Shown piece by piece: positions 12,009-59,727 of a stretch of 64,000 nt of DNA. The stretch's first letter is position 1; each line of letters opens with the position of its first letter. Position numbers and translations under genes: made by a program. The stretch covers positions 11,061,001 through 11,125,000 of the forward strand of contig NC_083516.1 in the NCBI RefSeq assembly GCF_032362555.1, written 5' to 3'. Below the pieces are notes generated by a model. It made no database searches and was not told the origin of the DNA. It saw nothing but the letters and a program-made list of their open reading frames with translations. The DNA is from Amyelois transitella (taxonomy: Eukaryota > Arthropoda > Insecta > Lepidoptera > Pyralidae).

Positions 12009-12033
12009 ATGTGAAACATCTTTTTCACGTTTA

Positions 12034-12590: not shown

Positions 12591-12846
12591 TACATACATA
12601 TAATCACGTCTATATCCCTTGCGGGGTAGACAGAGCTAACAATCTCGAAAAGACTGATAGGCCACGTTCAGCTGTTTGGCTTTATAATGGAATTGAGATT
12701 CAAATAGTGAGAGGTTGCTAGCCCATCGCCTAAAAGAAGAATCCCAAGTTGATAAGCCTATCCCTTAGTCGCGTTGTACGACATCCATTGGAACGAGATG
12801 GAGTGGTCCTACTCTTCTTTTTTTTGGTGCCGGGAACCACACGGCA
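12591..12846 (-). mobile_element. Family A SINE-like element, full length
   Basis: From TACATACATA to CCACACGGCA. An AACACAGGGAACACT block occurs just before it (12570-12584) and again 16 bp after it (about 12865-12879). This suggests a TSD with a few extra bases kept at the 5' end of the element. Confidence 0.8.
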
Positions 12847-14505: not shown

Positions 14506-14750
14506 TTTTTTGTATTGGTGCCGGGAACCACATACCAATACAAAAAAATAGGACCACTCCATCTCTTTCCCATGGATATCGTAAAAGGCGACTAAGGGAT
14601 AGGCTTACAAACTTGGGATTCTTTTTTAAGGCGATGGCTAGCAACCTGTCACTATTTGAATCTCAATTCTATCATTAAGCTTCATAGCTGAACGTGGTCA
14701 TTCAGTTTTTTTAAGACTGTTGGCTCTGTCTATATATGTATGTATGTAAT
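14506..14750 (+). mobile_element. Family A element with inverted 5' tip
   Basis: The forward copy starts at TACCAATACAAAAAA. The missing first ~20 bases lie just before it in inverted orientation (ATTGGTGCCGGGAACCACA), making 14 bp arms 14506-14519 / 14534-14547. Ends TATGTATGTA. Confidence 0.75.
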
Positions 14751-24807: not shown

Positions 24808-24916
24808 GCCGTGTGGTCACCGGCACAAATAGGAAAAAAATAGGACCACTCCATCTCTTTCTTCTGTTAGCTCTGTCTACCCCGCAAGGGATATAGACGT
24901 GATTATATGAATGTAC
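24808..24916 (+). repeat. Family A copy with large internal deletion
   Basis: 5' end (GCCGTGTGG to CCATCTCTTTC) joined directly to the 3' end (TTAGCTCTGTCTACCCCGC ... GTGATTATATG). Confidence 0.8.
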
Positions 24917-25116
24917 ATATGTTTTTTTAGGGACTACTAATTTTTATTATTAAAAGTTTTAATTGTTACTGACAGAGAGACCCATGATTTTACACAAAAA
25001 TAAAAAATCTCAAATGAAAAACGGTAGAGTAATGAAATATAATAAAGATATAATTTCAGGCATGAGCATTGTTTAAGTGAAAGTATAATAATGTAGTTTT
25101 TGACAGTTAGTGACAA

Positions 25117-28353: not shown

Positions 28354-28551
28354 GCCGTGTGGTTCCCGGCACCAATAGAAAAAATAATAGGACCACTACA
28401 TCTCTTTCCCTACTAGCAACCTGTCAATTTGTATGATTCTTAATTATATCAGTAAGCCAAACAGCTGAACGTGGCCTATCAGTATTTTCAAGACTGTTGG
28501 CTCTTTCTACCCCGCAAGGGATAAAGACGTGATTATATGTATGTATGTACG
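28354..28551 (+). repeat. Family A copy with internal deletion
   Basis: Starts GCCGTGTGGTTCCCGGCACC, jumps from CATCTCTTTCCC to TACTAGCAACCTGTC, ends ATGTATGTATGTA. Confidence 0.85.
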
Positions 28552-30505: not shown

Positions 30506-30850
30506 ATAGTTGAATGTGGATGAAGTATGCAGACGGCCTCTGTGGCGCAGCGGTAGTACGCTTGTCTGTGACACCGAAGGTCCCGGGTTCGAATCCTGGC
30601 CAGGGCATGATGAGAAAAGAACTTGTTCTGATTGGCCTGGGTCTTGGATGTTTATCTATATGAGTATTTATTATAAAATATAGTATCGTTGAGTTAGTAT
30701 CTCGTAACACAAGTCTCGAACTTACTTCGAGGCTAAATCAATCGGTGTAATTTGTCCAAAAAAATAAATAAATAAAGAGATCGTAGAAAGTGGAAAAATG
30801 TAGTCTCTTTACTAGCCTAACCCTCCGGGAAAGAACAGTGATTTTATCTG
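30506..30850 (+). mobile_element. LINE 3' fragment split by a tRNA-SINE
   Basis: Left part ends GTGGATGAAGTATGCA at about 30530. The right part resumes GAGATCGTAGAAAGTGG at about 30777 and runs to GTGATTTTAT. Together they restore the order of the copy at 15287-15601, with the SINE in between. Confidence 0.75.
30531..30776 (+). mobile_element. tRNA-derived SINE (first type), nested in a LINE fragment
   Basis: Starts GACGGCCTCTGTGGCGCAGC. A-box TGGCGCAGCGGTAGTACGC and B-box GGTTCGAATCC, then a body with TTATCTATATGAGTATTTAT, AACACAAGTCTCGAACTTAC and an (AATA)n tail. The same family is at 36230-36455, 58803-59017 (minus) and, headless, at 4832-4905. Confidence 0.88.
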
Positions 30851-35200: not shown

Positions 35201-38200
35201 TCAGGCCCCTCTCCAGATAGGTGAGAATGTAACCAGTGACTAAAGCTTCAACATTGGTCTTAAGGAGTTTTTAGCAAAGTAGATGTTCCCCTATATAAGG
35301 TTTAAATCTTATTCACGAACTAAGAAAAAACTAGTTTAGAGTCAATTCATCATTTAGTCGCTTTTTGTGACAAATGAAGGAAAAATTTTCTTCTAGAAAT
35401 TACAAGTCTTGATGGATGAAATGGGTTAAAGAAAACATATAACGTACTGAGCTAGGAAATGAAATTATATGTTCGTAATTTAATTGTCAACAAATGAATT
35501 AATAGATTAAATTCAGCTTACTGATTGAGTTGCTGATCTTCCTCGAAGTAGTGATACTCAGCCATTTCTTCTTCAGCACGAAGTCGGAGGTGAATCCCAG
35601 AGGGAAGCTCATCAAGTACATGCCGAGGTAAGGCAAAGCTGACATCACTCCGTTCTAAAAATTTGTAAAGGTAATAAGTTTTACTTTTGCCCCAGGAGTT
35701 TACACGTGGTTTATCAAATGTCAAGTCATGATTATAGAGTTTATATATAATCATGACTCGGCAGTTGATAAATCAGGCGATTACATGAAGCGAGTTCTGA
35801 CTGACCATTGCTTGCCAAGAGAAAAATTACTTTTACTTATAAAAATATTATAATCTGTGTATAAACTTGGGATTCTTCTTGCAGGTTGCGATGGGCTAGC
35901 AACCTGTCACTTTTTGACTCTCAATTCCATCAGTAAGCCAGTCAGCTGAACGTGGCCTTTCAGTATTTGGAGACTGTTGGCTCTGGCTACCCCGCAAAGA
36001 ATTGTATTGATTGATTTGGTTGTATGCATGTAGGTACCAGTTTGTATGTATCTGAGTCGACTTTTACTTTATTCACGGGAAACTGATAAGTCTCTTAAGT
36101 TCTCTTTTAACATAAGCATTTGATTTTACCTAGCCTTGTGTTTTTATTCCGTTTTATAACTTCTTCGCTAACTTATACCGCCTTTTTATGTGGCATCGGC
36201 ATTGAAGGTAACAAATTACAATCATTTGACGGCCTCTGTGGTGCAGCGGTAGTACGCTTGCCTGTGACACCGGAGGTCTCAGGTTCGAATCCCGGCCAGG
36301 GTAGGATGAGAAAAGATTTTTTTTTATTGGCCTGGGTCTTGGACTTTCATCTATATAAGTATTTATTATGAAATATAGTATCGTTGAGTTAGTATCACGT
36401 AACACAAGTCTCGAACTTACTTCGAGGCTAACTCAATCCGTGTAATTTGTTCCGTATATATTTATTTATTATTTCACAAATGTCCCATTATAACTTTAAA
36501 AATAAAATTATTATTACTGATTTGATGTCGACTCCAAGAACTCTGTTCATATACGAAGGTATTTCGGTCATGAGAGTCCAGAATCCCCAGTTGTGTCCGC
36601 AGTGGGTGATCAGGAGAGACAGGAACGGCAACGATGTGAAAATGGATTTCCAGGGCGTTTTTAATTTCTGAAACAAACAATGAATTTTAATATAATGACA
36701 TAATAGAATTATCTTTTATACAACTCGACCGTCCATGAACTATGTACTGGTCAGGTTTGCATACATGTAATGATAAGTATCTGCTATTTTGATTTCAATT
36801 TGATTTTCACTTTTAAAAGTGCATTGCAAAGAACAGTTTAAAGAACAGATAAATTGTGCGTCAAAATTTCCTGAATGTTGCTGTCAGACGAAGAGTAAAT
36901 CTTAAAATTTATGCATTGTTTTAAAGTAAAATATTTAGTACATACATACATACATGTAATCACGTTGATATCCATTGCGGGGTAAACAGAGCCAACAGTT
37001 TTGAAATTACTCATAGGCCACGTTCAGCTGTTTGGCTTAATTATAGAATTGAGATTCATATAGTGACAAGTTGCTCGCCCGTCGCCTAAAAGAAGAATCC
37101 CAAGTTTAAAAGCCTTCCCCTTAGTTGCCTTATACGATATCCATGGGAAAAAGATTGAGTGCTCCAATCCTTTTTCTATTAGAACCGGAAACCACACGGC
37201 AAAAATATTTAGTAAAAATAATCAGTCGTGTGAAAAGTTTAGCTACACTTCAGCGAACTCCAGTTATTATAAGCATACCTTCTGCACCCCGACTTGCCCT
37301 AGCGAATTTTCAATATACGCCTTCTCCTCCACGCTGATGATCTTCGAGGTCTTCGGCGTGGATGACCCTATGAACATGTAGAGGACAGTCCACACGGCCC
37401 CCAGACTGCCCATGGTGTAGAAGATGGCCGGCCACCCCCAGTAGTCTGCTATGTAGCCAGATATTATGAGCTGTAGTGCTGTGCCGAGCTGACCTCCTGT
37501 CACAGAAAATACACACATACATATGGTCACGTCTATATCCCATGCGGGTAAACAGAGCCTCGCCGGTTTCGGGTACTCTATATACACCGGGTATAGTATA
37601 TACTATCTTAGTTTTTGTAAAAACTTGTAATTTACTATAAATACCATAATCTGTTTAAATATTGATTGTTTAATTACATACATACATATGGTCACGTCTA
37701 TATCCCTTGTGGGGTAGACAGAGCCAACAGTCTTGAAGACTAAATGGCCACGTTCAGCTATTTGGCATAATGATAGAATTGAGATTGAAATAGTGACAGG
37801 TTGCTAGCCCATCGCCTAAAAGAAGAATCCCAAGTTTATAAGCCTATCCCTTAGTCGCCTTTTACGCCGTGTGGTTCCCGGCATTAATACAAAAAAGAAT
37901 AGGACCACTCCATCTCTTTCCCTTGGATGTCACAGAAAATTGATAAGTATTCAATTATTCTCTCGTCCACATTCTATTCTAAGTTTGGATAATTATGAAG
38001 TTGACGTTGTTGAAGAGAATGCTGCAGTGCAGTTTGTTACCGCTTCTTCTGCACTGACGCCTTGGAAGCGGCAGTAAACTTAGTTTTAAGTAATTTATTT
38101 TACGTCAACCAATGTTGTTAAACCATACGTTTTGACAATTATTAAGCGATATGAAGTATCCTATAATAATGAATAAAACACAATTTTGAATTTTGAATAA

Positions 38201-41200
38201 TTTAAGCATTTAAGGTTTGAAATCTTTCTGCCTTGCCTTTAGTTAAAGACAAAAAATGAAATATCACATACTACAAATGTGTATATATTTGTGATGAACG
38301 TTGTCGCTTCATCACTTATAAACTTTGAAACTTTGAAGTTGGCTAAAGATAGCAATAAAACTACTTTGCATGTTGTGAAAACAAAAACATTGATTTTGCC
38401 GTTAGCAGCTTATATATTTACATACATACATACATACATATTGTCACGTCTATATCCCTTGCGGGGTAGACAGAGCCAACAGTCTTGAAAAGACTGAATG
38501 GCCACGTTCAGCTATTTGGCTTTATGATAGAATTGAGATTCAAATAGTGACAGGTTGCTAGCCCATCGCCTAAAAAAGAATCCCAATTTTGTAAGCCTAT
38601 CCCTTATATATTTACTGCAGATATATTTCTGCTATTATGTTTCTTAACATAATTTCTTAACATAACATATTTTGCTATATAAAGAACTCACCCGAGTACA
38701 CTAACGTCCCAAGTCGACTCTTCTCTTCCAACGGCACCCATTTTCCAATCACGTTGTGTACTGATGGAAACAGCAGTCCTTGAGACAGACCTTGGACCAC
38801 TCTGCAGGCACAAACCAACTTCCAGCCGCCCTTGAGAGATATATGTATATATTTTAATAACCACAAATTGAACAGTGCCGTGTGGTTCCCGACACCAGTA
38901 CAAAAATTAACAGTACCACTGCATCACTTTCCTATGGATGTCTTAAAAAGCGACTAAGGGATAAGCTTACAAACTTGGTATTCTTTTTTTAGGCGATGGG
39001 CTAGCAAACTGTCACTATTTGAATCTCAATTCTATCTTAAAGCCAAATAGCTGAGGGTGGCCTATCAGTCTTTTCAAGACTGTTGGCTCTGTCTACCCCA
39101 CAAGAGATATAGACGTGACCATATGTATGTATGTATGTAATTGAACAATCAATATTCAAACAGATTATGGTTTGATATTTATAGTAAATTACAAGTTTTA
39201 CAAAAAACAAGATAGTATATACTATACCCGGTGTATATAGAATACCCGAAACCGCCGAGCTTGCACGAAGAGAGTTATGAATGTGGATGAAGCGAAGGAA
39301 GTATGCAAAGGTCGTGGCAAGTGGAAAGGTGTAGTCTCTGCCTACCTCTCCGGGAAAAGGCGTGATTTTATGTATGTATGTATGTTTATACTATAACTTG
39401 CTTATTATTTAAGAACCTGAAAACCATGCACACAAATTCATATTACATACATTTGACCCACGCCGTAGTAAATGTACGATAAGATTCTCTGTCTAAGGAT
39501 TTAGGATACTGTTGTCCCGTTGACCTTTTATTGGAACGTCAAAGCTTTGATCCAAGGTAGGTTACACGTTAATTTTAAACTTTGAATATTACTGGAGCCA
39601 AACCATATTAACATAATTTACTATATGATCAAACAAATATGACAAATTATAATTAAAATAAGACACATTGCTATTATAATTGAAGAGGCGTTATGATGTT
39701 TATGTTAGGATCTTTGAAAGACGGACCGGAAAAAGTGATAATATCTACCGACATACATACACCCACAAACAAACCTTTCGGACGAAATTCAGCCGAAGAA
39801 CATACAAAGAACACACTGCCTATAAATACCATCTGTTTGAATAGGATAATTTCCAAGTCAATCTATCATATAATAAATATAAGATTATAAAATAAAGAAG
39901 AATAGCTTATTTTGCCTAAAACTTCACTTCCAGTGGCAATTACAAAAAAAGTTTCTAAATGTATTGTCTTAATGTCAAATTTTGAAAATTGTTAAGGATT
40001 TTTGAATAGTTACGAACAGATTTACATACATATAATCTAGTCGTTATCCCTAACGGGGTGCGCAGAGCCAGTCGTCTTTAAGAGACTGAAAGGCCACGAG
40101 ATTCAAATAGTGACAGGTTGAAACTCGTCGCTTAAAAGAGAACTCCCAAGTTTAATACTCGTAACGTTATCCTTGATTGACTTGTAAAATCCCCACGGTA
40201 AGAGACACAGCTGGTATTTTTTTTTCGCTACCACCAATGAAAGTTTGTATGGACAAAAATATTCCTTCTTCACAACTGGTTGCGAAACAAGATTCCTTCT
40301 TCACAACTGATTGCGAAGAGTTTATAAAGAATACTTACAAAATGAGCCCCAATTGGCAGCAAGAGAGAAGCCGCCGAGTTGATACCAATGCACAACACAA
40401 TGAGAATCTTGCTGCCGAACCTCGCAGCCAGCTCGCCTCCGGGGATTTGAAGGATGACGTAGCCCCAGAAGAAGGATGACAGGATGACACTCTGAGTTTG
40501 GACGCTCCAGTCGAATGACTGTAAATAAATTGTTTGACTATTTCATTTCGAAATAAAATTCAATAATTTTAAAGGCAAATTTGTCTTGTGCAGCTTTTAA
40601 ATATAGTCACGTCTATATCCCTTGCGGTGAAGACAGAGCCGACAGTCTTGGCAAAACTAAAAGGCGTTCAGCTCTATGTATGTTTTTAGAATGGAATTAA
40701 GATTGAAATAGTGACAGACTGCTAGCCCATCGCTTACAAGTGGAATCCCAATATTATAAGCCTATACCAAAATATACCAGGTATATACGAGGATTCAATA
40801 TAAGTTAGGTTTCCCTGCAAATATTGCGGAGGTCAGACGGGAATCACATCATTTAAACCTCACTTTTTGTAATTTAACGCAGTCATACAATATCTTACAT
40901 TGCACGAACCATAAGCACATTGAAAACATCCCGGCGGAAGGTCATTTCAAGAGTACCCTAAATTTGGCCTATCAGTCTTTTCAAGACTGTTGGTTCTGTC
41001 TACGTCGCAAGGGATATAGTCGTGATTATTATATGCGTATGTATTTATTTCTCTGTATCTCCCTGGGAAATAAACGTCGTTATAAATGTGACTCCTTTTA
41101 TGGCCAAATAGCTGTAAAGGAACTCCAATTGTGTATTCATGACCTTCTGTCTGTCTGTATGTTATTGCCATTTTATTCGAAGAAAATGTGTACTTTGATA

Positions 41201-44200: not shown

Positions 44201-46469
44201 CAGATTAGAGAAAAAGGAGATATAAACAAAATTATATAGAAAATAGTATGCAAGGAATGGCTTGATGACGTGAACATAACTTATGTATAACTACTATATC
44301 TGCTACTGTTTCCAAAACGCAAGCGTAGAAGAAGCGGTGGAACAAACAAACTACAATTAATTATATTTATATACATATAAAACTCTTCCATAACTGAGTG
44401 CAGTCACTCAGTTACGATACAAGTATTTACAATATTAGATCCTAATAAAATTATTAGTAACAGGGTATAAAAAGTTATCGCCACATCTCCTTTTTCGACT
44501 CTTAGCAACAAATTAATGATAGTTCGTGGCAAAGTAAATAGGTACTTTGCTCTTTTTTACTTTCTTTAAACGTTTAAACTATAATTTAAAGAGAATTAAT
44601 GTGGTAGTACGTATTTAACTTCAAATTGAACTACCTTTTCTTTACAGCTCTGACCGTGTTAATTTATTAAAAAAAATCTTAGCCCTTTACTCTTGTTCGT
44701 TTCTATAAAAAGAGAAGCTTTCATTTATCGCGATTGCTATAGCTTAATTTTGTCAAAACAATTTATTATATTTTTTATAACTCAAAAACAAGCTTATACA
44801 TCAAACCAGGGAAAATATTGTAAGGCAAAATAAAAAAGAAAACAAATAAAAATACTACGTCTTTACCCCTTACGGGGTAGGCAAAGCTAACAATCGCACA
44901 AAGGTAGGAATGCCACGTTCAGCGATACGGTTTTTGATGATGATTGTGTCTAAGAAAGGACGTTTAATACATAAATAATATACAATTGAAGCATTACAAT
45001 AAAACAAATTGTACAACAAACAATACTATATATAAAAAAATGTATAACATAAACAAGGCCATGCTGTCATTGAGCGTCGTTTCATTGCGGATTGACGATT
45101 TTAAACACATTTTCCTTATCAGTGAGTGATAGGATGTTATTTGTACCGCGGTATTGAAAATCCGCACTTCCATCCGGTACAAATGGATTCCATTACAAGT
45201 TATAGAGTTTAAATACTTAATCATGCTAGGAAAGGTAATCAGTGTGTAGTAATATTCTCTCGTCTACATTTCTATTCTAAGTTTGGATAATTGTGCCGTG
45301 TGGTTCCCGGCACCAACAGAAAAAAGAATAGGACCACTCCATCTCTCTCCCATGGATGTCGTAAAAGGCGACTAAGGGGTATGCTTATAAACTTGGGATT
45401 CTTCTTTTAGGCGATGGGCTAGCAACCTGTCACTAATTGAACCTAAATTCTATCATTAATGATATGTTTGGATAATTGTGAAGTTGACGTGGTTGAAAAA
45501 AATGCTGCAGTGTAGTTTGTTACCGCTTCTTCTGCACTGACGCTTTGGAACTGGCAGTAAACTTAGTTTTAAGTAATGTATTTGACTCTAGTACATGTAT
45601 GTAGTAAAGCAACGGTTCAAGGGGAAATGCGCAAAGATGAGAGAAAGGTGTATTGTATATAAAGAAATTTCGTCAATGAAACTTTGAAAAGAAAATTGAG
45701 AGTGATCTGGGGTGTTTAATAGTATGTATATAATTTCTTTTCAAATTGATCCACACATTGGGACTCGTATTTACATTATTAGGAAAAACATGGATGATTG
45801 CATAATTTCATAGTATTTATTTTTCCAGCGTGATCATGACTTATAAACTCTATAGCCGTAAGTATTTGAACCAGTTTATTTGTTAATTACGTCTTGCTGG
45901 TATATCGTTCTTTGCTTACAACTATAAAAACTGTCACTTTTAACGCTCTGTTGTCTGTTATACACCAGAACATCAAAAAAAATTACAGATTTTTCGTTTT
46001 GTTAACTACTTATCGCGTCAGATTGAAAAAAAAATGTATTTTTATAAAACATGGAATCCATTATTTGTATGGAAAATTATTAGATTTATTTTTAATAAGT
46101 AGTATCGGAAAACAGAATAGGACCACTCCATCTCTTTTCCATGGATGTCGTAAAAGGCAACTAAGGGATAGGATTACAAAGTTGGGATTCTTTTTAAGGC
46201 GATGGGCTAGCAACCTGTCACTATTTGAATCTCAATTCTATCATTAAGCCAAAAATCTGAACGTGGCCATTCAGTCTTTTCAAGATTTTTGGCTCTGTCT
46301 ACCCCGCAAGGGATATAGACGTGACCATATGTATGTATGTTTTATAAATAGGTTGAATGTAAAACCACATAAAATTAGGAGAACAACTGAAAATAATTAA
46401 TATCGTCAAAATAACGCAAAACTTACTTGGTTTTGTAACTTCACTAACAGCATCTAATTTGGCACTCAT
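32206..46469 (-). CDS. SLC17-like MFS transporter A (putative inorganic phosphate cotransporter), 11 exons, 465 aa
   Basis: Exons in transcript order: 46469-46427, 43409-43285, 40518-40339, 38830-38692, 37496-37279, 36667-36518, 35654-35522, 34743-34622, 33805-33686, 33071-32930, and a short terminal exon 32231-32206. Phases join without a break (1398 nt). Family marks: MLGVRHLQAVMLF then MRVNMSMAIVAM in TM1; SFFWGYVILQIPGGELA with RFGSK in TM2 and the following loop; RVVQGLSQGLLFPSVHN with KWVPLEEKSRL in TM4-5; HCGHNWGFWTLMTEIPSYM in TM7; SPNFASTLMGITN in the C-terminal half. This is the anion:cation symporter / SLC17 group; insect members are usually annotated as inorganic phosphate cotransporters or sialin-like, and the real substrate is unknown. 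The terminal exon (DIKMEKAV then TGA) is inferred from a strong acceptor (TTTTTCAG) and phase; reading through the last donor would instead stop at about 32908. Introns hold many family A repeats. Confidence 0.88.
32680..32908 (+). repeat. Family A copy, degenerate
   Basis: GCCGTGTGGTTCTCGGCACT through GGATTCTTTTAGGCGCTTGG to AAGACGAGATTACTCGTAT. Lies just downstream of exon 10 of transporter A, within its last intron if the short terminal exon is right. Confidence 0.7.
33102..33420 (-). repeat. RTE/Helitron-type 3' end, antisense
   Basis: Begins ACTAGCTTTTACCCGCGGCT, whose complement (GCCGCGGGTAAAAGCTAGT) is the typical end of several lepidopteran non-autonomous elements. The inner body was not classified. 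Confidence 0.45.
33491..33532. repeat. 42 bp palindrome
   Basis: Arms TAATAGCATTATCT (33491-33504) and AGATAATGCTATTA (33519-33532). The centre pairs further (ATAGT-AG-ACTAT) with one T/T mismatch. Inside a transporter A intron. Confidence 0.85.
33845..34110 (+). mobile_element. Family A SINE-like element, full length
   Basis: GCCGTGTGGTTCCCGACACC to ATGCATGTATGTA, about 40 bp from exon 9 of transporter A. A second piece in the opposite direction follows at 34190-34320 (GGGGTAGACAGAGTCAACAA ...). Confidence 0.85.
34826..35103 (+). mobile_element. Family A SINE-like element, full length with tail insertion
   Basis: GCCGTGTGGCTCCCGGCACC to CATATGTATGTATGTA. About 16 extra bases (CTATATTCCTTATATA) sit within the GATATAGACGTGA block. 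Confidence 0.85.
35710..35772. repeat. Imperfect palindrome
   Basis: Inner arms AGTCATGATTATA (35724-35736) / TATAATCATGACT (35746-35758). Outer arms TTTATCAA (35710-35717) / TTGATAAA (35765-35772). Confidence 0.75.
35855..36045 (+). repeat. Family A fragment, diverged
   Basis: AAACTTGGGATTCTTCTTGC, GATGGGCTAGCAACCTGTCA, CTGAACGTGGCCTTTCAGTA; ends near TGTATGCATGTAGGTA. Confidence 0.7.
36230..36455 (+). mobile_element. tRNA-derived SINE (first type)
   Basis: GACGGCCTCTGTGGTGCAGC, B-box AGGTTCGAATCCC, tail ACAAGTCTCGAACTTACTTC then TGTAATTTGTTCC. In an intron of transporter A. Confidence 0.88.
36939..37201 (-). mobile_element. Family A SINE-like element, full length
   Basis: TACATACATACATGTAATCA to AACCACACGGCA. 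Confidence 0.85.
37511..37927 (-). mobile_element. Composite family A insertion with 13 bp TSD, 5' inversion and transduced flank
   Basis: TGTCACAGAAAAT lies at 37498-37510 and 37928-37940. In minus-strand order the insert is: the first ~62 bp of family A inverted (37927-37866), the rest of family A direct from GTAAAAGGCG (37865-about 37675), about 105 bp of non-SINE DNA, a few bases of LINE (TACCCGAAACCGG), and a second family A tail (GGGATATAGACGTGACC, TATG). The 105 bp and LINE bases recur at 39140-39255 in the same relation to a family A copy. The inner copy of the TSD contains the polypyrimidine tract and the A of the splice acceptor of exon 5 of transporter A. Confidence 0.75.
37941..38220 (+). 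repeat. LINE 3'-end-like repeat
   Basis: CTAAGTTTGGATAATTATG, GCAGTGCAGTTTGTTACCGC, TTCTGCACTGACGCC, then ATGAATAAAACACAATTTTG with a TTTTGAA-type tail. A second copy, interrupted by a family A insertion, is at about 45237-45590. Pieces in the other orientation lie near 14165-14225 and 44318-44350. Confidence 0.6.
38418..38609 (-). repeat. Family A copy, 5' end missing
   Basis: ACATACATACATACATACAT to GTAAGCCTATCCCTTATA. Confidence 0.85.
38877..39137 (+). mobile_element. Family A SINE-like element, full length
   Basis: GCCGTGTGGTTCCCGACACC to ATGTATGTATGTATGT, 47 bp from exon 4 of transporter A. Followed by the 105 bp segment (39140-39235) and LINE piece (39236-39388) that recur inverted at 37511-37675. 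Confidence 0.88.
39236..39388 (+). mobile_element. LINE 3'-end fragment
   Basis: ATACCCGAAACCGCCGAGCT to GCGTGATTTTATGTATGTAT. Confidence 0.82.
40022..40205 (-). repeat. Family A fragment, diverged
   Basis: TTACATACATATAATCTAGT, GGGGTGCGCAGAGCCAG, GAGATTCAAATAGTGACAGG. Followed at about 40259-40318 by a local ~31 bp tandem duplication containing TTCCTTCTTCACAACTG. Confidence 0.65.
40600..40770 (-). repeat. Family A fragment, diverged
   Basis: ATATAGTCACGTCTATATCC, AGACAGAGCCGACAGTCTTG, AATAGTGACAGACTGCTAGC. Confidence 0.65.
40962..41045 (+). repeat. Short family A tail
   Basis: TTTGGCCTATCAGTCTTTTC to GTGATTATTATATGCGTATG, joined to a LINE scrap (AGGTCATTTCAAGAGTACCC). Confidence 0.65.
41640..41903 (-). 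mobile_element. Family A SINE-like element, full length with perfect 10 bp TSD
   Basis: AATTCGAAAT at 41630-41639 and 41904-41913 brackets a 264 bp copy from (CATA)n to CCACACGGC. A good reference for element ends. Confidence 0.92.
42163..42235 (-). repeat. Short family A tail, antisense
   Basis: AACATACATACATATGGTCA to CCAACAGTCTTGAAAAGA; 5'-truncated. Confidence 0.75.
42640..42755 (+). repeat. LINE 3'-end scrap, diverged
   Basis: AAGGTCAGGTCAAGAGTACC and GGATGAAGCAAAAGATTGG keep LINE order; the end is shortened. Confidence 0.55.
42770..42975 (-). repeat. Antisense 3' end of another LINE
   Basis: Minus strand reads CCAGTCAAACCTTTGGACCA, GAGATGGATGTACGGGTGG and ends CAATAAAGATTTTGAATTG, a common pattern of moth LINE 3' ends. 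Confidence 0.55.
43013..43187 (-). mobile_element. LINE 3'-end fragment
   Basis: Close match, antisense, to 15420-15600: TACATACATACATAAAATCA, GGAGGGGTAGGCAGAGACTA, TTTACCAGGACGTCCTG. Confidence 0.85.
43474..43710 (-). repeat. Family A copy, diverged
   Basis: TTACGGGATAAACAGAGCCG through AGATTCGAATAGTGACAG to GGTAACCACACGGCAC. Confidence 0.7.
44848..44945 (-). repeat. Short family A tail, diverged
   Basis: CTACGTCTTTACCCCTTACG, GGCAAAGCTAACAATCGC, GCCACGTTCAGCGATACGG. Confidence 0.6.
45296..45465 (+). mobile_element. 3'-truncated family A copy with 15 bp TSD inside another repeat
   Basis: GTTTGGATAATTGTG at 45281-45295 and 45466-45480. The element starts CCGTGTGGTTCCCGGC and stops after TCTATCATTAATGATAT, lacking its last ~100 bp and the (TATG)n tail. 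The uninterrupted site survives at about 37980-38000 (AAGTTTGGATAATTATGAAG). Confidence 0.85.
46107..46341 (+). repeat. Family A copy, 5' tip missing
   Basis: TCGGAAAACAGAATAGGACC to CATATGTATGTATGT, ending about 80 bp from exon 1 of transporter A. Confidence 0.82.
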
Positions 46470-48928: not shown

Positions 48929-51900
48929 TTATGTGATGTGCGACTCCCCGTCTTGATGTAATTCTGAAAAAGGATAAAAATAACGTTAGGTGTATATTAG
49001 AAAATACAAAACTGGCGCAGTGCTTGAGAATTTTATGATATCCCGAAGTAATATAGGCTCCTTTTATCTGGCAATTTCCACGTTAACGGGAATATGAGAA
49101 TTGAATTTTAACGTAAGCAGTGCTACAAATCAGAGCTAATATTTTATAAAAGCCATGATTGGCATACATATATACATATGGTCACATCTATATCCCTTGT
49201 GAGACAGTGTAGTGTAGCAATTAAATGTATTCTATACTTCTATACTCATTATTTCACCTGAGCCAGATGAGGATGAAACTTCTTCGTCTTGTGCTGCTTG
49301 GATTGCGTCTTTCAGCGAGTTGAAGTTCCTGGCTGCGATTATTGTGCTCAACCTACGATTTCGCAAGCCGTCGGCAAATCTTTTTATCGCAATTTTTTCA
49401 TTTAATGGCTTTAAAATTTCATATTTATTCGAATTTCCTTCGGCTTGGGATATCGTTAGGTCATCCTGGCAGGGTCGCCATATACGGGATGTATTAGGAG
49501 GAGAATTAATACAAAGAAAGCTGAATAAAGACTGATCATTTATTGATGATTATTAAGATTAAATAGAGTTAAAATGAGGTTACACGTGTGGTACAATATA
49601 ATGAGTATAGAAGTATAGAATACATTTAATTGCTACACTACAACAGAGCCAACAGTCTTGAAAAGACTGATAGGCCACGCTCAGCTAGTTAGTAGCTAGT
49701 TATTCAAATAGTGACAGGTTGCTAGCCCATCGCCTTAAAAAAAGAATCCCAAGTTTGTAAGCCTATCTCTTAGTCGCCTTTTACGCCATCCACGGGAAAG
49801 AGATGGAGTGGTCCTATTCTTTTTTGTACTGGTGTCGGGAACCACACGGCAAAACCATGATTGACATTTGCATAAACGTTTATTTACATGTTCGAACATT
49901 TCGGGAGGAATTTTTGAAGTTGTTAACTCTAAAGTAAGACTTTAGAGTCTACCTTTAACATGTTGAAGAAAAATTATTTTTATTATATTTTTATGATAGC
50001 ATTAACAAATGTAATTAAAATACATATTTTTCCATTAGTAACTATTATAAAAATGAACATCAAAACATAATTAATCTCTCGTTTATTTTAGTGTTTATCA
50101 TCTATCGTAATTTATAACCTCCGGTAAAAATGAGGGTATTATAAAATATTATGCATATTTATACCTATGTCAATCAAAGGAGGTAAACGAAAGGACACAT
50201 TTTGGTAAACTTTTTTGAATCAACGTCCTTATTTGGCGAATTGGGAAACATTTATTATTAATTTTATCTGAATACTACAACTTATTTTTCGGGCAAAATT
50301 TTTGAATATTAACCAAGATATTTGTTTACCATAACAATTTTCCATTTTTAAGACTAAGTAGTCATAGTTCCCGTATGGGTTAGGTACCTGCAAAGGGTTG
50401 CATTCAGATGGGAGTCCATGTAAAAACCTTACTTATTCAATTTAAGATCGGGGTTTTCATGAGCTCATCTTCAAATGGATGAGGACTTAACCGGGACCAT
50501 CGCCAGATGAATATATAACATATATACTTTTATTTACTTATATTTATATAAAAGATCAAAAGGGATCAGCTTACAAACTTAGGATTCTTCTTTTAAGCGA
50601 TGGGCTAGCAACCTGTCACTATTTCAATCTCAATTCTATCACTAAGCCAAACAGCTGAACTTGGCCTTTCAGTCTTTTCAAGATTGTTGGATCTGTCTAC
50701 CACGCAAGGGATATAGACGTGATGATATGTACATACATATCATCACGTCTATATCCCTTGCGTGGTATACATATATACATATATATGTTGAAAGATTAAA
50801 AACCGTTTTAACGAAAGGAATTTATAAGGCAGTTCTGACTGTAAAAGTGGGACAGTGCCGGCCTCGTCAAACTTGCCAAGACCAAATTTCGAATTACTTG
50901 AAAAAGGGAGATGTTGGGAGTACCTGTAATCGTCGAATATTCATGAAAAGAATCATGAGTGTGGAGGAAGCGGGAGAGGTCTGTAAGGATCGTAGCAAGT
51001 GTAAATCCATAGTCTCTGCCTACCCCAAAGGGAAATAGGCGTAATGTTTTGTATGTATGTACAACCATTTACAAAAATTAGCACTGTTGGTTATCAGGAA
51101 TAGTAGTTGAATGTGTATTTTGTTTTGAGTGAGAATTCTGAGAACTTTTTGTAACAAGTTGAATGTGAATTTGCTTTGCAATTTCTCGTGGTACAATGAA
51201 GATTTATTGTATGATTGAACTACGGATATTTACCTTTCTCATTCCTTTCCTTTGGCTCATTCCACGGTTGTCTCTCACTGCTCCCGAAGATAACGAATAT
51301 GGTGTTAAAGACGACGTACACAGCTGACGACAGATAAAACACGTTCTGCCAGTCGGTCGCGTTCGTCTGAACATAAACACCGTTAAATTTAACAGCTCGG
51401 TTAAATCGACTGTGACACAGTTTTGTCACGATCGGTCTTGTGTTGTTTTTTATTTATTATTAGCTGTGCCCGCGATTTCGTCCGCGTGGAATAGTTATTT
51501 TGGGCATTATTGAAGCCCTCAAGGATGAATAATTTTCCCCGTTTTTTTTTTCAAATTTTCCATTATTTCTTTGCTTCTTATAGTTGCAACGTGATGTTAT
51601 ATAGCCTAAAGCCTTCCGATTAATGGTCTATTCAACGCAAAAATAATTTTTCAATTCGAACCAGTAGTTCCTGAGATTAGCGCGTTTAAACAAACAAACT
51701 CTTCAGCTTTATGATCCCAAACGTATGGAAGAATATTTATGACAAATCAGCAAGCAGTATGGTTCCCAGCACCAATAAAAAGAAGAAAAGAAATGGACCA
51801 CTCCATTGCGTTCCCATGGATGTCGTAAAAGGCAACTGAAAAAGGCTATAAACTTGGGATTCCTCATTTAGGCGATGGTCTAGCAACATGTCAGTGTTTG

Positions 51901-54900
51901 AATCTCAATTCTATCATTGAGCCGAGCAGCTGAGCGTGGCCTATCAATATTTTCAAGACTGTTGACTCTGCCTACTCTGCAAGGGATATTCCTTTCCATT
52001 TACCATGTTCCAATAAAAGAAATAGACTTTACCTCATCCTTGACGATCACTCCAGCGACCAAAGGCGCGATGATACCGACGATGTTGGCGAAGAAGTTGG
52101 TGATACCCATCAGAGTGCTGGCAAAATTTGGTGCCATGTCAATGTGGACCAACTGTGAACGAGTGGTATTCAGTTAGTGCTGGGTGGTTCCCGACGCTTA
52201 AGAATCACAACACTTTTAGGACCACTCTATTTCGTTCCCGTAGATGTCGTAGAAGGCGATTACGGAAAGGATAATAAACTTGAGATTCATCTTGTAGACG
52301 ATGGGCTAACGACATGTCAGTATTTGAATCTCAATTCATTTTGGGCTTTGACTTTTTTGAGTCTGTTGGCTATATCAACTTCCTTAGGGATAACATACGT
52401 ATAATCAAATTTTGCGGGGTAGTCAAAGCCAACAGTCTCGAAAATACTAATGACCATGTTCAGCTGTTTGGCTTAATGCTAGAATGGCGACATGTCGCTA
52501 GCCCATCGTCTACAAGAAGAAGTTTATAAATATCCATTTGTCGCCTTAAACGACATCTATGGGAAAGTGATGGGGTGGTCCAATTCTTTTTCTATTGGTG
52601 CCGGGAACTACAGCGCCAAAAGGATAAAACTATAAGGGATAAAGACGATTATATGTATGTATATATGTTAAAAATGCTAATTCCTTTAAAAGTTCATGAA
52701 ATATAACTATTTTACGCTACCTGAATCACAAAAATAAACTTACCAAATAGCCAGCGTAATGTCCGGAGTTCAACACCATGGTTAGCGTTAGAAGTGAAAC
52801 AGCGACTGTAGCGTTGGCTGGTGCATAGGTCAGAACCACTAATACGATAGCAGGACCATACATGCCTGCAATTTATAAATGACATATCTTAAATCAGCTC
52901 TTTATCACACTGACAAAATCCAAAATCGTGATTATAGAATTTTTGCCTGTAGGTCATAAAAACTTAAATATAACCCCTCTAAGAGGTAATTCTGTCAGTG
53001 AACTTTTATGGCGAACTAAGTCGCGGGCAACGACTAGTACTAAAAACTATAATGAGGAATACGACAAGAGAGATTTACCTCTAGCAACGGGGATCTGAGA
53101 TATACGAGTAGCACAGATATTGCTTCCATCATGAGAAGTTGATATGGCAATTATTTTAGTTGTTGCAAGTATCACTTAGAAATAAGATCATCCTCCTGGT
53201 TTACTCTATGAGTGGATAGCTGATTAAATATAAATAACAATAATCTTTAACTTTCCTGCCTGAAGCCATTGTAACGGCAATTGTTAGAACCTGTGTCTTT
53301 TCAATACATTTTGCGTCAGAAAAAACAAAAGACTCACCAATAGAGTTGCCTATTTTCCTTGACGCAGTAATGCTGAGCCATTTCTTCCTCAGAACGTAGT
53401 CAGACAACTGACCGACGAGGAAGCTCACGAGGAACATGGCGAAATACGGAGTGGCTGACATAAGACCATTCTGAAAATACATTACAATCAAGTTGTACTT
53501 ATAATAAATGATATCACAAGCGACATACAAGGCCAGACTTGTAATAGAAGTATTCTTTATTCTTTCTACTGGCGATAATTCCAGCTACATCCTTACCTGC
53601 CTAAAGAAGAGACCAGGGTTTTTTTTTTGACCTGGATTGGGTAAGTCAGATTTTCACCTGTAAAGGTTGCAGAGATCAGACAGGACAGGACAGGCGATGG
53701 AGAGATAGCCTTATAAACTTGGAATTCTTATTTTAGACGATGTGCTAGCAACCTGTTACTACTTGAATCTCATTTCTATCATTAAGCCATACAGCTGAAC
53801 ATGGCCTATTAGTCTTACCAAGACTGTTGGCTCTGTCTACCCCGCAAGGGATATAGACGTGACCATATGTATGTATGTATGTATGTGTATATAAGACAGG
53901 AGTTGCTTTGTATAAATGACCTACCTTACTCATTGGCCACTAATCCTCCTCTTCAAAATGATGAGAAAGTAACTGGGATTAACGTTTAGAAATAAAAACA
54001 AATCCTAATATAACTGAATAGAAACCGTCGCGTTGCATTTTACTATTTTTAAATACGCGCATGTATCATACCCTTATTTTATTCCGGACGTTTCGAATCA
54101 TGTTACAATGATCCGCGGTCATCGAGCTACTGAAAACCAAGAGGCTTCTACTGTACTGCTCCGACTGCGCGGCAGAATGTTCTTCTACTGCCAAGTTGTT
54201 AACACGCTAACTACAATACACACTAACAGGTCCGTATTCCGCAGCGCAGCCATATTACGCCGCATTTTAACCAACTTAGCAGCATGAGGTTGCGTTTTTG
54301 TAACATGATTCGATTCATCCCTTCAAATTAAAACTCGTGCATGAAAAAATACTTACAGACTTGATGTCAACGCCCAAGGCGTTGCTCATGTACGAAGGTG
54401 TCTCGGTCATGAGAGTCCAGAATCCCCAGTTCTGACCGCAGTGTGCTATGATAAGGGATATAAAAGGCACCGACGTAGCTATAGCCTTCCAAGGAGTCTT
54501 AAGTTTCTGAAAATTATGGTAAGATAGGTAATTAAATTGCAGTTATACAAAAAGACAGATTTTTTGGGTTGATAAAACTACCAAAGTTTAAGGGTATCAA
54601 CTGGCCATTACTTTTCATTCCCGAAAGTAAAAAGATTTTTTGGAATACTTTACATACATACATACTTACATATGGTCACGTCTATATTCCTTGTGGGGTA
54701 GACAGAGCCATCAGTCTTGAAAAGACTGTCGGCCACGTTCAGCTGTTTGGCTTAATGATAGAATTGAGATCTAAATAGAGACAGGTTGCTAGCCCATCGC
54801 CTAAAAAAAGAATCTGAAGTTAGTAAGCCTATCCCTTAGTCGCCCTTTACGACATCCATGGGAAAGAGATGGAGTGGTCCTATTCTTTTTTGTATTGGTG

Positions 54901-57900
54901 CCGGAAACCACGCGGACTTACCTTATTGGTAATATAAACAACCATTGATAGGACGGTCTTTTTTATAATCATAGTAAACACCACGCCTTGTGTCGGTCCC
55001 AAAACGAATACTACTGAACCGAACTTAAAAACCAATATGTATTTCACCAACCTTTTGCTCCCCAACATGGCCCAACGAATGTTCTATATACATCTTCTCT
55101 TCCGAGCTGATGATCTTCGAAGTTTGCGGAGAATTAGATCCGAGGAAGGCATAGACCACCGTCCATATGGCGCTGAGGACTCCGATGATGTAGAATATGA
55201 ACGGCCAGCCCCAGTACTCGGAGATGTAACCGGCTGCGAGAAGCTGTAAGGCTGTGCCTAGCTGGCTTCCTGGAATGAATTGAAATCCATATAAAACACG
55301 TTAAGATGACCAAAACAGACGAGTCTCCATGACAATATTGATGAATGTGGACGAAGCAAAAGTAAAATGCAATTTTCTAAATACTACAGATATTAAACGC
55401 ACACTTATAGTATCTTTATTTTACTGTATCGTCTTGCATCATGTTACACTGATCCCTGATGACTGACTACAGTAGCATACAGGGAAGCACTAAGAGAAGA
55501 ATTTTAAATATTTCATATGGCCTAATAGAAAAGTCAGAAAATTGGTAAACCTATCCCAGCAGCAGCTGCAACACATTACCTTGCTGGTTCGCTTGCTCAA
55601 CATGGTAGCATTAAAATCACCACACAAAATTCAACACAAACATAGCCATTTGGTAATAAATCTTTTATTCAAAATGCAGTGTAATAAATTTAACACATTT
55701 TGTATACCGAGGCATGTCAACGTGTCATCACATGATTCCACCAGGATTATAAACCTATTCTGTTGTCATTAAAATATTTCCGAATTAAAGCTTCAATTAT
55801 ACAAACCTGCATATACAAAGGTGCCCAATCGACTTTTCTCTTCCAATGGCACCCACTTTCCGATGAGATTGTGTGTGCAGGGGAAGAGAAACCCTTGGGA
55901 GACACCTTGCACCACTCGACAGGCACATACATATTGCCAGCCACCCTGGAAACAAATGCAAAATATCTGCAGAGGAACAATATTATGAAATCGTCTTAAA
56001 ATTTCATATACAAAGATGAATAAAAAGAAGCACATTAATCAGGTGTCATTTACTTGGGATCCGATTGGATTTCTGGAAAATTACATCTTTACCTAACCCA
56101 GCCAACAATTATTATTGATCTTCTCTTCTTTTAATTTTTGACAATAACGCTGTAGCATAGTATGCTGAGATCGTGGCAAGTGGAAAGAGGTAGTCGCTGC
56201 CTACCCCTCCGGGAAAGAGGCGTGATTTTATGTATGTATGTATGTACGCTGTAGCAAAAGGCATGTGTCAGGCTCGATCGCCACCAAAGAGATGATCTTC
56301 TGCCAGTCTTTTTGAAGTACCGCCGCTTATACGATGTTAAGTCGGATGTTTTATTTATGGTTCAACCATGTTCCCATGCGTGATTTAGAATATTCGCTAC
56401 TATTAACTGAAGGCGTAGCATACTTTACTGTTATTGGATGAAAGCGTGTGACGTAGAGATGTCTTCTTTGGTAACTTCTTACATAGTACGCAGCAAGAGG
56501 CAGCAACAACGACGCCACAGCATTGATCCCCAGGGATAGCATCAGCAGGATTTTGCTCCCGAACCTCGCAGCCAGCTCTCCCCCGGGAATCTGCAGCACG
56601 ACGTACCCCCAGAAGAAGGAGGAGAGTATGACGCTCTGGATCTGCAGACTCCAATCGAAGGACTGTAATGTGGAATTTTGACTTTTTAATTTCATTCTGA
56701 CGCATCTGATATACAAGAAGACCAGAGCGTCGATGGTCAAATCGGCAAGGAGCCCCGTTAAATTGCGTATGCGCAGAAGGTCACATTATTACTTTCATAA
56801 ACCGCTAAATAAAAGTGTCGGTAGTCTAACGGTAAAATTGAGTCTCTTAAATATTAATATACTAGCTTTTACCCGAAGGTACTCCTGTACGAATTAAGTA
56901 CACCCTTAAAAAAGCGACGAATTTAGCGACACCTACAAAAAGCTATGAATTTAGTGTCACTTACAAACTAATTAAGCACCACATTAAACACATCCTTTTG
57001 AATTACTCTATTAAAAAACTACATCAAAACTCATTGTATAGTTTTACAGATCTAAACATACATACATAGGGACAGGCACGGGAAGCGACTTTGCTTTATA
57101 CTAGTGATTGTATATTTCATCCCAAAGCGCTTTGGTAGTACGCGAAAAATATAGAATTTTTGACAAAATTGTTTTTATTATGAATTGATTCTAAGTATGT
57201 AAAATATTAGTTACATGCTACATTTAGTATGCCCGAATTAAGTGAAAATAAAAAGAGGAGACATAAGTAATAGTACTCTTCATATGTTTCTCTCTTACTT
57301 ACATCATTTGCCTTTGTGCATAAAAATATTATCCTGATAAATATCATCAATTTTGTCAATAATATTGTTGATTGATGATTGACAATGATTATATCAGTTT
57401 TCTGTCGGTAACTTCAGTAAACATATACTGATAAATTGATTATGCACCGAAAAAATACGTATGACATCAGTTATTTTCTTTGATACAAATTGTGATGATC
57501 CGATATTTATAACAATTTACTTTTATCAGTTTCCTGCACAGGTACATAATCATATTTTGTTCGGAAGTATTGGGTTTCCATCACTGGGCCGTCCGGCTGA
57601 CTGTAGTTATTGAGTTTTTTGGCTATCGGTGTTATCTACCCCGTAAAGAATAACGACGTGATAATTACTAAATATATAAATTTCGTAAAATGTAATACCT
57701 AGCTATAATTATATGTACCTATCGCAATTAATGTTTAAAAAATATATGTACCGGTAGAGTGCCGTGTGGTTCCGGCACCAATAAAAAAAAGAATAGGACC
57801 ACTCCATCTCGTTCCAATGGATGTCGAAAAAGGCGACTAAGGGATAGACTTATAAATTTGGGATTCTTCTTTTAGGCGATGGGCTAGCAACCTGTCACTA

Positions 57901-59727
57901 TTTGAATCTCAATTCCATCATAAAGCCAAACAGCTGAACGTGGCCTATCAGTCTTTTCAAGACTATTGGCTCTGTCACCCCGCAAGGGATATGGACGTGA
58001 TTATGTGTGTGTGTGTGTGTACCGGTAGAGTCGTATGACTTTGACCTAATATTCGACAACATTTATATTTTTGTATCATATTTCCGACGGTTTCAATTAT
58101 ATGTTTATATAAATAATTTAGACACATCACTATATAGGAATATAAGGAAGCTGTATATAAAAATATAAGTTACGTATATAGTTGTCATACACATATTTTT
58201 TGTCAAACTTTGGGCCAAAGTTTTACTTAGAACCGGGTGACATTAGCCCGCTCCTTTTTTTGTCCAGTAAAATTGTATGCTCTTGAATATAATTCAATTT
58301 TTGTCTTTTTCATTATGGGTCAATACTCGTTAACCCCAGTGTTTTTTTTTTATAACGTAATTCAGAAAGTCCTCATTGGGGCCTTGGTCCAATATAAATG
58401 CTTCTTGATTGGTGTGGAATACATCAACTATTCAATCACCGATATTCTCAAAGCCCTACTTAAAAATTTGGATAAAAAAGTGTATGGTAAGGATTCTTCG
58501 TTATTCTGTAATAAAAAATTCTGCGTCAGCATTATGAGGAATAATTTCTCATAATTGTTACCAGAGCAAAATACTTTAATAAAAATTAGTATAACAATAA
58601 AATGAGGCCTTACATTTTCACTGTTGTCATCGGTCATGGAAACTATAGCCATGCTCATGTTCACTCGCATACTGTACGAGATGAGCATGGCCAGAAACAG
58701 CATCAAAGCCTGAAGGTGCCTTACTCCCAGCAAAGCCTCTGTAAAAAAATCATTACAATAAATGTAAAGGTAATGCTTACATAAATAAATATAAACGGGA
58801 CAGATTACACAGATTGAGTTAGCCTCGAAGTAAGTTCAAGACTTGTGTTACAAGATACTAACTTAACGATACTATATTTTATAATAAATACTTATAAAGA
58901 TAAACCTCTAAGAGCCAAGCCAATCAGAGAAAATTCGTTTCTCATTTTGCCCTGGCTGAGATTTAACCCGGGACCTACTGTGTCACAGGCAAGTGAACTA
59001 CCGCTGCGCCACAGGGGCAGTTAGATGGTTTGGTACTGTGGAGAGAATGCATGAAAGCAGATTGACAAACATAATCTTACAAGGAGAGTGCGAAAGGCCT
59101 AGAAACGAACCATTATCAAAACGGGATTATCCTGGAAAAGATCAGGTCAAGAATACACTAATCCGACAAGCGTGTATGGAGAGAGTTATGAATATAAGCT
59201 TACGATGTAAATGAAGGGATTGTGGCAGGTGGAAATAAGACTCTTGTCCTGATCTTAACTAGGACGATCCCGTTTTAACTAAGGTACATTTGCCATTTGC
59301 ATTTCTCATTCCTACTCTCTCTCCAGGAAAAAGGTGTAATTTGAAGTTTATATAAAAAGGACATCAGACAGTAGGTGAATTTAAAATACAACTGCTGCTT
59401 GAGGGAAAGTACAATAACGTTATGTTGTTAACGTGTACTAAAGAATTCAACTAGACGAGAGTGTATCAAAAAACATCGAAGCAGTTTGGTCATTTTATGA
59501 TTAGTTTCAGAAAATTTTACTGAAAATGAGATAAAAACATCATTAACTTTATGATGAGAGATACAGTCCTGACCATATTGGTCTTAATATTTCAAATAAT
59601 GTGGACCCCAAGCCTGGAAGCATTATAGTCTAGGGTGCAACTGGGAATGCGCAAAGATGAAAGTCATTTCAAATTTGTACTTACTTGGCTTTTTTCCAAC
59701 TTCATCACTTTTCGATGCAGAACTCAT
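48929..59727 (-). CDS. SLC17-like MFS transporter B (putative inorganic phosphate cotransporter), 11 exons, 465 aa
   Basis: Exons in transcript order: 59727-59685, 58738-58614, 56662-56483, 55945-55807, 55269-55052, 54506-54357, 53470-53338, 52865-52744, 52152-52033, 51366-51234, 48963-48929. Exons 1-9 have the same lengths as in transporter A (43, 125, 180, 139, 218, 150, 133, 122, 120 nt). The last two differ slightly (133 and 35 nt), yet the total is again 1398 nt. Motifs: RVNMSMAIVSM in TM1, SFFWGYVVLQIPGGELA, VVQGVSQGFLFPCTHN, KWVPLEEKSRLGT, HCGQNWGFWTLMTETPSYM, APNFASTLMGITNFF. The terminal exon encodes a hydrophilic tail (ELHQDGESHIT) after a 2.3 kb intron. Donor 5 is GTTGGT, a weak but usable site. 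The gene is intact and lies head-to-tail with A and C. The substrate is unknown; the product is expected in the plasma or an organelle membrane. Confidence 0.9.
49157..49854 (-). mobile_element. Family A SINE-like element split by an LTR-type insertion
   Basis: The left part runs from the CATACATATATACATATGG tail to CCCTTGTGAGACAG (49207). The right part resumes ACAGAGCCAACAGTCTTG at 49643 and ends CCACACGGC. Outer flanks share CCATGATTG.CAT (about 49144-49156 and 49856-49868), a probable TSD for the SINE. Confidence 0.8.
49208..49642 (-). mobile_element. LTR-retrotransposon fragment with 45 bp perfect inverted ends
   Basis: 435 bp between ACAG at 49204-49207 and ACAG at 49643-49646 (4 bp TSD). 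Both ends read TGTAGTGTAGCAATTAAATG inward; the inverted match is perfect for 45 bp (49208-49252 / 49598-49642). On the minus strand an LTR-like AT-rich part is followed by TGGCGACCCTGCCAGGATG, like a gypsy-type primer-binding/leader region. An open stretch with gag-like residues follows (FADGLRNRRLSTIIAARNF, SLKDAIQAAQDEE). The right-hand LTR is replaced by an inverted copy of the first LTR's tip. No pol is present. Lies in the last intron of transporter B. Confidence 0.72.
50566..50767 (+). mobile_element. Family A fragment ending in a 34 bp perfect foldback
   Basis: GCTTACAAACTTAGGATTC to GACGTGATGATATGTA, then the same 3' end returns in inverse. Arms are 50698-50731 and 50734-50767 with a CA spacer. 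Confidence 0.88.
50795..51061 (+). mobile_element. LINE 3'-end fragment, divergent lineage, frame still open
   Basis: The frame to 51038 encodes GQCRPRQTCQDQISNYLKKG and a tail MSVEEAGEVCKDRSKCKSIV ... AYPKGK, parallel to the copy at 15287 but well diverged; ends TTTTGTATGTATGTA. Confidence 0.75.
51461..51722 (-). repeat. RTE-type non-autonomous repeat
   Basis: TTAGCTGTGCCCGCGATTTC at the left, TATATAGCCTAAAGCCTTCC inside, AACCAGTAGTTCCTGAGATT and GCGTTTAAACAAACAAACTC at the right: a common moth and arthropod RTE-derived pattern. Confidence 0.6.
51755..51990 (+). repeat. Family A copy, diverged
   Basis: GGTTCCCAGCACCAATAAAA through AACTTGGGATTCCTCATTTA to CTGCAAGGGATATTCC; the tail is lost just before exon 9 of transporter B. 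Confidence 0.7.
52178..52670. repeat. Two family A copies in opposite directions plus a tail scrap
   Basis: The forward diverged copy is 52178-52400. The antisense copy is about 52413-52618 (GCGGGGTAGTCAAAGCC to GTGCCGGGAACTAC). A tail scrap (GATTATATGTATGTATAT) ends near 52668. The opposed arrangement could fold in the transcript. Confidence 0.65.
53690..53887 (+). repeat. Family A fragment, 5'-truncated
   Basis: GATAGCCTTATAAACTTGG to (TATG)n; in an intron of transporter B. Confidence 0.8.
54651..54915 (-). mobile_element. Family A SINE-like element, full length
   Basis: TACATACATACATACTTACA to GCCGGAAACCACGCGG. Confidence 0.88.
56150..56251 (+). mobile_element. LINE 3'-end fragment
   Basis: GCATAGTATGCTGAGATCGT to GGCGTGATTTTATGTATGTA; heavily 5'-truncated, little diverged. 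Confidence 0.8.
57761..58018 (+). mobile_element. Family A SINE-like element, full length with 13 bp TSD
   Basis: GTACCGGTAGAGT at 57748-57760 and 58019-58031. Starts GCCGTGTGGTTCC; the tail has turned into (TG)n. Confidence 0.9.
58803..59017 (-). mobile_element. tRNA-derived SINE (first type)
   Basis: Minus-strand head CCCTGTGGCGCAGCGGTAG at the right end; body and tail as at 30531-30776. The B-box is altered (complement of TTTAACCCGGGAC). Directly abuts a LINE piece. Confidence 0.82.
59018..59220 (+). repeat. LINE 3'-end fragment, diverged
   Basis: TTAGATGGTTTGGTACTGTG, GAGAATGCATGAAAGCAG, AGATCAGGTCAAGAATACAC; ends before the tail. Confidence 0.7.

Follow-up and report, generated by a model that had tools for sequence, protein, structure and literature searches.

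A twin-primed SINE insertion beside a transporter splice acceptor in Amyelois transitella, with a probable local patch resembling 3' transduction

The DNA analyzed here is a window of 64,000 nucleotides from the moth Amyelois transitella (contig NC_083516.1, positions 11,061,001 to 11,125,000, forward strand), and all coordinates below are positions within this window. It is AT-rich, with a GC content of 0.31-0.40, and is densely populated by SINEs of about 263 bp with (ATGT)n tails (hereafter family A). The subject of this analysis is a 417-bp block that is located in an intron of an SLC17-like MFS transporter gene, beside one of the exons (Table 1). This exon and the preceding one join in frame, and the hand-read peptide of the two matches MFS_1 (E 9.6e-22) as well as vesicular glutamate transporter and sialin chains. 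The exon boundary is supported by similar exons at 55.0-55.95 kb, and both later exons begin with GA after AG. A second copy of the MFS gene, in the same orientation, was found at 53340-56693. Its exons resemble the ones at 35.5-40.5 kb; judged by this similarity, the transporter gene appears to be tandemly duplicated.

Table 1. Positions of the block, of the 39-kb locus and of related features in the window (nt, nucleotide of the family A SINE)
Feature	Position	Strand	Remarks
MFS (SLC17-like) exon whose acceptor adjoins the block	37279..37496	-	Boundaries read by hand; similar exon 55050-55272
Inner target-site repeat	37498..37510	-	Minus strand ATTTTCTGTGACA; acceptor tract of exon 37279-37496; 37497 completes AG
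Second (terminal) SINE 3' tail	37511..37559	-	SINE nt 209/210-258, ends (ATGT)n
Proposed 166-bp patch	37560..37725	-	Matches 39085-39258; contains SINE nt 209-263, 3' target repeat of the 39-kb SINE, intron DNA and LINE remnant ending CGA(G)
Forward SINE part	37726..37866	-	SINE nt 66/67-208
Inverted SINE 5' end	37866..37931	+	nt 1-66; last 4 bases TGTC common with target repeat
Outer target-site repeat	37928..37940	-	Followed by T, not G, hence no AG
Preceding MFS exon	38692..38830	-	Boundaries read by hand; similar exon 55812-55950; putative donor SINE starts 47 bp upstream
Full-length family A SINE of the putative donor locus	38877..39139	+	Target repeat AATTGAACAGT / AATTGAACAAT, at 38866-38876 and directly after tail
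Putative donor of the non-SINE part	39140..39258	+	Intron DNA between two insertions, then start of presumably RTE-like LINE remnant
5'-truncated, presumably RTE-like LINE 3' end	39240..39386	+	9-bp repeat TATACTATA at 39218 and 39387
Second 5'-inverted family A copy	14507..14742	+	Repeat AACTTCTT; TTCTT/AAGAA microhomology (5 nt)

The block (37511-37927) lies flush between perfect 13-bp direct repeats, the kind of target-site duplication (about 7-20 bp) that characterizes target-primed retro-insertion. The repeat, TGTCACAGAAAAT, was found only at 37498 and 37928 when both strands of the whole window were searched, so the bracketed block reported in a preliminary description of this DNA is real. 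Read in minus-strand order, the first part comprises the repeat, SINE nt 1-66 in inverted orientation, nt 67-208 and nt 209-263 (the first tail); about 100 bp of non-SINE DNA, about 20 nt of LINE (..GTACCCGAAACCGGCGAG), a second tail and the other repeat follow. Contrary to what had been described, the block does not end in LINE bases, since the LINE remnant of about 20 nt is succeeded by 49 nt of SINE (nt 209/210-258).

On the minus strand, the splice acceptor reads ATTTTCTGTGACA, then G, then the exon GAGGTCAGC. The inner repeat is indeed the acceptor tract of the exon, as had been recognized earlier, and together with position 37497 it forms ..CTGTGACAG. The earlier wording, according to which the insertion ends exactly at the acceptor and duplicated its tract, needs some revision: the tract was duplicated, the exactness is loose, and the duplication did not include the AG. 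After the outer repeat comes T instead of G, and thus no second AG or acceptor was made. The intron sequence that formerly lay upstream has been shifted away by 417 bp plus one repeat, and a SINE tail precedes the acceptor. At the similar MFS exons at 55 kb, the acceptor has no SINE directly before it. Two candidates for an empty site were rejected: the segment at 45253-45586 matches the flank beyond the outer repeat but is a dispersed repeat and not a gene copy, and for the MFS introns at 55 kb BLAST gave no match between introns.

The internal structure of the block is that of twin priming. SINE nt 1-66 is inverted and nt 67 onward continues in forward orientation, directly adjoining and with no base missing; base 37866 fits both parts. 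This bears out the earlier proposal that the 5' part of a family A element is inverted and the rest immediately adjoins it. The target repeat ends in GACA-3', which is complementary over 4 nt to UGUC at SINE nt 63-66, the position where the inversion stops, and the inverted copy begins just upstream of this UGUC, as would be expected if the target end had primed on the SINE RNA. The motif TGTC, which had been noticed before, is therefore common to the target repeat and to the SINE at the inversion stop, and supports primer microhomology. With both features of twin priming present, namely an inverted 5' part and a forward remainder of one element and microhomology at the end of the inversion, a twin-primed retro-insertion that used UGUC microhomology is well supported. 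The second 5'-inverted copy at 14507-14742 shows the same anatomy: its inverted 5' piece starts at the complementary AAGAA, and its forward part overlaps the inverted part. Among the papers listed by a literature search for twin priming in insect SINEs, none dealt with an insect SINE, judged by titles or the first part of abstracts.

From BLAST hits, 35 family A chains were assembled by hand, and 18 further chains, some of them long, were added later (53 in all; LINE tails were excluded from both counts). Near-flush direct repeats scoring at least 7 were found in 16 of the 35 chains (null: 23 of 1190 mismatched flank pairs) and in 18 of all 53 (null: 79/2756), and 5'-inverted copies accounted for 2/16 and 2/18 of these repeat-flanked chains, respectively. 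The 3' ~55 bp of family A match the 3' ~55 bp of a LINE at about 75-80%, a shared 3' end of the kind that marks a LINE-tailed SINE; this LINE partner, which we take to be RTE-like, has a reading frame ending in ...RDRGKWKEVVSAYPSGK. No match to a tRNA, 5S or 7SL head of family A was obtained with Rfam or ARAGORN. Separately, tRNA-His-like predictions were made at 30536-30607 and 36232-36303, the former barely above and the latter below the Rfam tRNA threshold; both lie inside a repeat that also occurs at 58781-59030, where no call was made.

Several other copies are unusual in structure. The SINE at 50560-50771 has a 3' tail followed by an inverted copy of that same tail, with the same private changes in both, and thus a snap-back-like hairpin tail. 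At 45295-45459, SINE nt 1-165 is 3'-truncated and has no tail, yet lies within a direct repeat of 15-18 bp, which suggests tail-less or internal priming; the dispersed repeat around it is also present at 37956-38103. The copies at 24808-24922 and 28354-28549 have internal deletions (about nt 56-203 and 58-124 absent, respectively), for which reverse-transcriptase jumps are a possible cause. The SINE at 12590-12845, with the direct repeat GTTCCCTGTGTTT, has about 16 extra bases between the repeat and its 5' end.

The non-SINE piece of the block, about 105 bp long (about 100 bp of it corresponding to 39140-39239), has one further occurrence in the window, at 39140-39258, next to the family A copy beside which it had been reported; a further match at 41306 covers 22 bp only. 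Exact scans of viral contigs, a collection that is a poor place for insect DNA, gave no match to a 28-mer of this piece or to a 27-mer of the SINE core. The 39-kb SINE has a target repeat of its own, AATTGAACA(G/A)T; thus, it inserted there in its own right, and the ~100 bp would be intron target DNA at that site. Since the block's version of the non-SINE piece starts with the 3' copy of this repeat, as AATTAAACAAT, the direction of transfer would be from 39 kb to 37.5 kb, and on these comparisons the 105-bp piece does seem to derive from the 39-kb locus. The repeat TATACTATA around the LINE remnant is weak, with 22 of 3000 random pieces matching equally well, and about 15 unexplained bases (39227-39241; CCCGGTGTATATAGA) separate this presumed LINE target repeat from the LINE start. 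The possibility that the 39-kb locus is one composite insertion was rejected, no outer repeat being seen by eye.

The preliminary description explained this shared piece by read-through transduction from 39 kb, in which the element body would come from the source locus together with its flank. We compared the block with the 39-kb SINE, counting as rare any change present in no more than two other aligned copies. The 39-kb SINE has 18 rare changes, and 17 of them are absent from the block; the sole common one, at nt 224, lies in the first tail. In SINE nt 1-196 the two differ at 28 of 193 sites, versus 1 of 63 in nt 197-263 (Fisher p 0.003). The flank alone differs at 6 of 114 sites, and nt 197-263 and flank together at 7 of 177 (p 0.0006 against 28/193, for a chosen break). 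The break at nt 197 was picked after inspection; when every break within the SINE was scanned and sites were shuffled, 252 of 5000 shuffles were as extreme (p ~0.05), and the best break was nt 190. A comparable contrast was found in none of the 78 pairs of the 13 near-full-length copies (a set that includes the 39-kb SINE and not the block), whose mean pairwise divergence was equal in nt 1-196 and the 3' region (0.115 and 0.114). In its 3' region, the copy at 11750-12012 differs from the block at 1/57 sites and is thus as close to it as the 39-kb SINE is. At nt 224, the first tail and the 39-kb SINE both have A, as does 1 of 26 other copies, whereas the second tail has G, and at nt 229 the block differs from the donor; the donor origin of the first tail is thus marked by a single shared rare change.

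Transduction would also have the insertion end in the 3' tail that lies beyond the source flank, here a LINE tail, and the block ends in a second SINE tail instead. Judged from these alignments, 3' transduction fails in its simple form, with the proviso that later overwriting of the source SINE could hide a match between the body and its source. The earlier interpretation is therefore partly upheld: the twin-primed retro-insertion is well supported, and the read-through transduction of the 39-kb SINE is not. An origin of the block's SINE body from another SINE of the window was rejected as well: the body has 7 rare changes, and each of the 32 aligned copies shares at most one of them. For the second tail, an origin by splicing of an extended transcript was discarded because no GT follows CGAG at 39 kb.

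Taking 37560-37725 out of the block leaves an uninterrupted twin-primed SINE: nt 1-208 then runs straight into nt 209-258, which the target repeat follows, and no base of the SINE is missing, give or take 1 nt of ambiguity. This 166-bp segment, aligned together with two adjoining bases (TT) that belong to the SINE, differs from 39085-39258 by 7 substitutions at 165 aligned sites and gaps of 4, 5 and 1; one of its joints is homologous, hence invisible, and the other shares one G. As expected of a local patch, it is closer to the nearby donor than the rest of the element is (p 0.0006 with the flank at the chosen break, and p ~0.05 within the SINE after the scan for a break). One joint lies at the 3' base (nt 208-212) of a hairpin predicted in the consensus SINE RNA (z -2.98). 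The hairpin has z -0.95 in the donor and z -1.81 in the block, and is thus weaker in both; a joint at the base of a hairpin fits either DNA repair or replication or copying by reverse transcriptase.

We consider it fairly probable that the block is a twin-primed SINE with a patch copied from a sister SINE and the flank beside it, which lie 1.4 kb away in inverted orientation, and more likely that the 105-bp piece was gained as such a short homology-guided patch than by transduction. The anatomy, the divergence contrast, the continuity of the SINE once the patch is taken out and the target repeat of the donor SINE are observed, whereas the order of events and the copying enzyme are inferred. 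A family A SINE RNA would have been reverse transcribed at a nick in the intron, with its sense on the minus strand. The other end of the break, with its terminal GACA-3', would have paired with UGUC at SINE nt 63-66 and primed a copy of the 5' end, hence the inversion. In the same step or a later one, the element would also have received a 166-nt patch from the inverted SINE-plus-flank locus 1.4 kb away, guided on one side by SINE/SINE homology and on the other by microhomology of about 1 nt, which would explain why the SINE tail is now present twice. As to the route of copying, a template switch in DNA repair or replication, either during insertion or following it, seems somewhat the better candidate, and a reverse-transcriptase excursion during insertion a slightly weaker one. 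The inverted sister SINE at a distance of 1.4 kb could have served as template for a reverse transcriptase that had stalled, and equally for a DNA strand that had stalled or broken, and this short distance, in the one window analyzed, would favour a local template. One particular version of the excursion, which we regard as improbable, is that the cDNA stalled at the hairpin base (nt 208-212), copied 166 nt of a local chromosomal strand and returned by SINE homology to the same RNA position. The template would possibly be the displaced flap of the nicked strand itself, since flap polarity and inverted orientation fit.

A tail-to-tail switch could also account for the precise joint at the (ATGT)n tail and for a SINE body unlike the one at 39 kb. 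In such a switch, a cDNA with 105 bp of 39-kb template would have re-annealed by its (ACAT)n end to the tail of another SINE RNA, so that the whole SINE of the block would come from elsewhere. Template switching of RTE-clade LINEs to U6 RNA has been reported, as have triple chimeras in other genomes (PMC4476161), and the contrast within the SINE stands at p ~0.05 after scan correction. However, such a switch would make the A at nt 224, the low 3' divergence and the clean nt 208/209 continuity coincidences, and we think it unlikely to have taken place. Read-through, with 39-kb SINE RNA extending through the 105 bp into the LINE and inserting at 37.5 kb, would explain why the joint between SINE and flank is the same at both places, the 3' copy of the 39-kb SINE's target repeat included, and why the LINE bases keep their order, provided that two extras are granted, a template switch for the last 49 nt and a later overwriting of one of the two SINEs. 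Against this, besides the missing rare changes and the terminal SINE tail, stand the extra conversion required across most of nt 1-196 and the low chance of an insertion 1.4 kb or less from its source in a large genome (an argument biased by the choice of one window), which make read-through less probable still. Even harder to maintain is a composite repeat family of greater length, in which SINE, 105 bp and second tail would form one unit and the block would be one member: the 105 bp is present in 2 copies in the 64 kb versus 53 family A chains, and at 39 kb the SINE's own target repeat puts the 105 bp outside the SINE.

In sum, the block is a genuine and well-preserved SINE insertion made by twin priming, to which a local patch that resembles 3' transduction was most likely added. 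Each step is of a known kind, and their combination is mechanistically instructive as a legible trace of the ways in which such an insertion can go awry. That an apparent transduction looks more like a short local patch is relevant wherever flanks are used to trace parent SINEs. The two inverted copies (2/16) hint at a possibly high frequency of 5' inversion among SINEs with RTE-type tails, unlike Alu, and it can be counted in any lepidopteran genome with family A. In addition, an insertion beside a splice acceptor can spare the acceptor sequence, which was left intact here because the target tract was duplicated.

Ectopic gene conversion and synthesis-dependent strand annealing can have one non-homologous end. 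The block would resemble ectopic gene conversion in that a local repeat copy acted as the donor, the flank was carried along and the other joint has microhomology, and may differ in that the copying fell within retrotransposition itself. With L1 twin priming it shares the inverted 5' end, the flush repeats and the 4-nt microhomology between target and internal RNA, whereas the block is a SINE and its LINE partner is likely of RTE type. Among the 5'-inverted L1 copies of human and chimpanzee, about 70% have 2-5 bp of microhomology at the 5' joint, and 5' inversion was recorded in 1 of 5554 Alu and 4 of 477 SVA (PMC2912911), compared with 2/16 or 2/18 here, these being small numbers from one window. 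Lepidopteran SINE/LINE pairs with RTE-like 3' tails have been described, namely PxSE5/PxLINE1.1 (with ATGT tails) and HaSE1/HaRTE1 (PMC8010984 and PMC3272025). In these pairs, too, SINE and LINE have a related 3' end, and family A also has an (ATGT)n tail; the likeness noted here is one of 3' end and tail, and as a difference, no tRNA- or 5S-type head was found on family A. Finally, LINE template-switch products and triple chimeras likewise contain pieces of different origin inside one pair of target repeats (PMC4476161 and PMC13174262), whereas the extra piece of the block matches a locus 1.4 kb off, has the same SINE tail on both sides and is joined homologously at one end.
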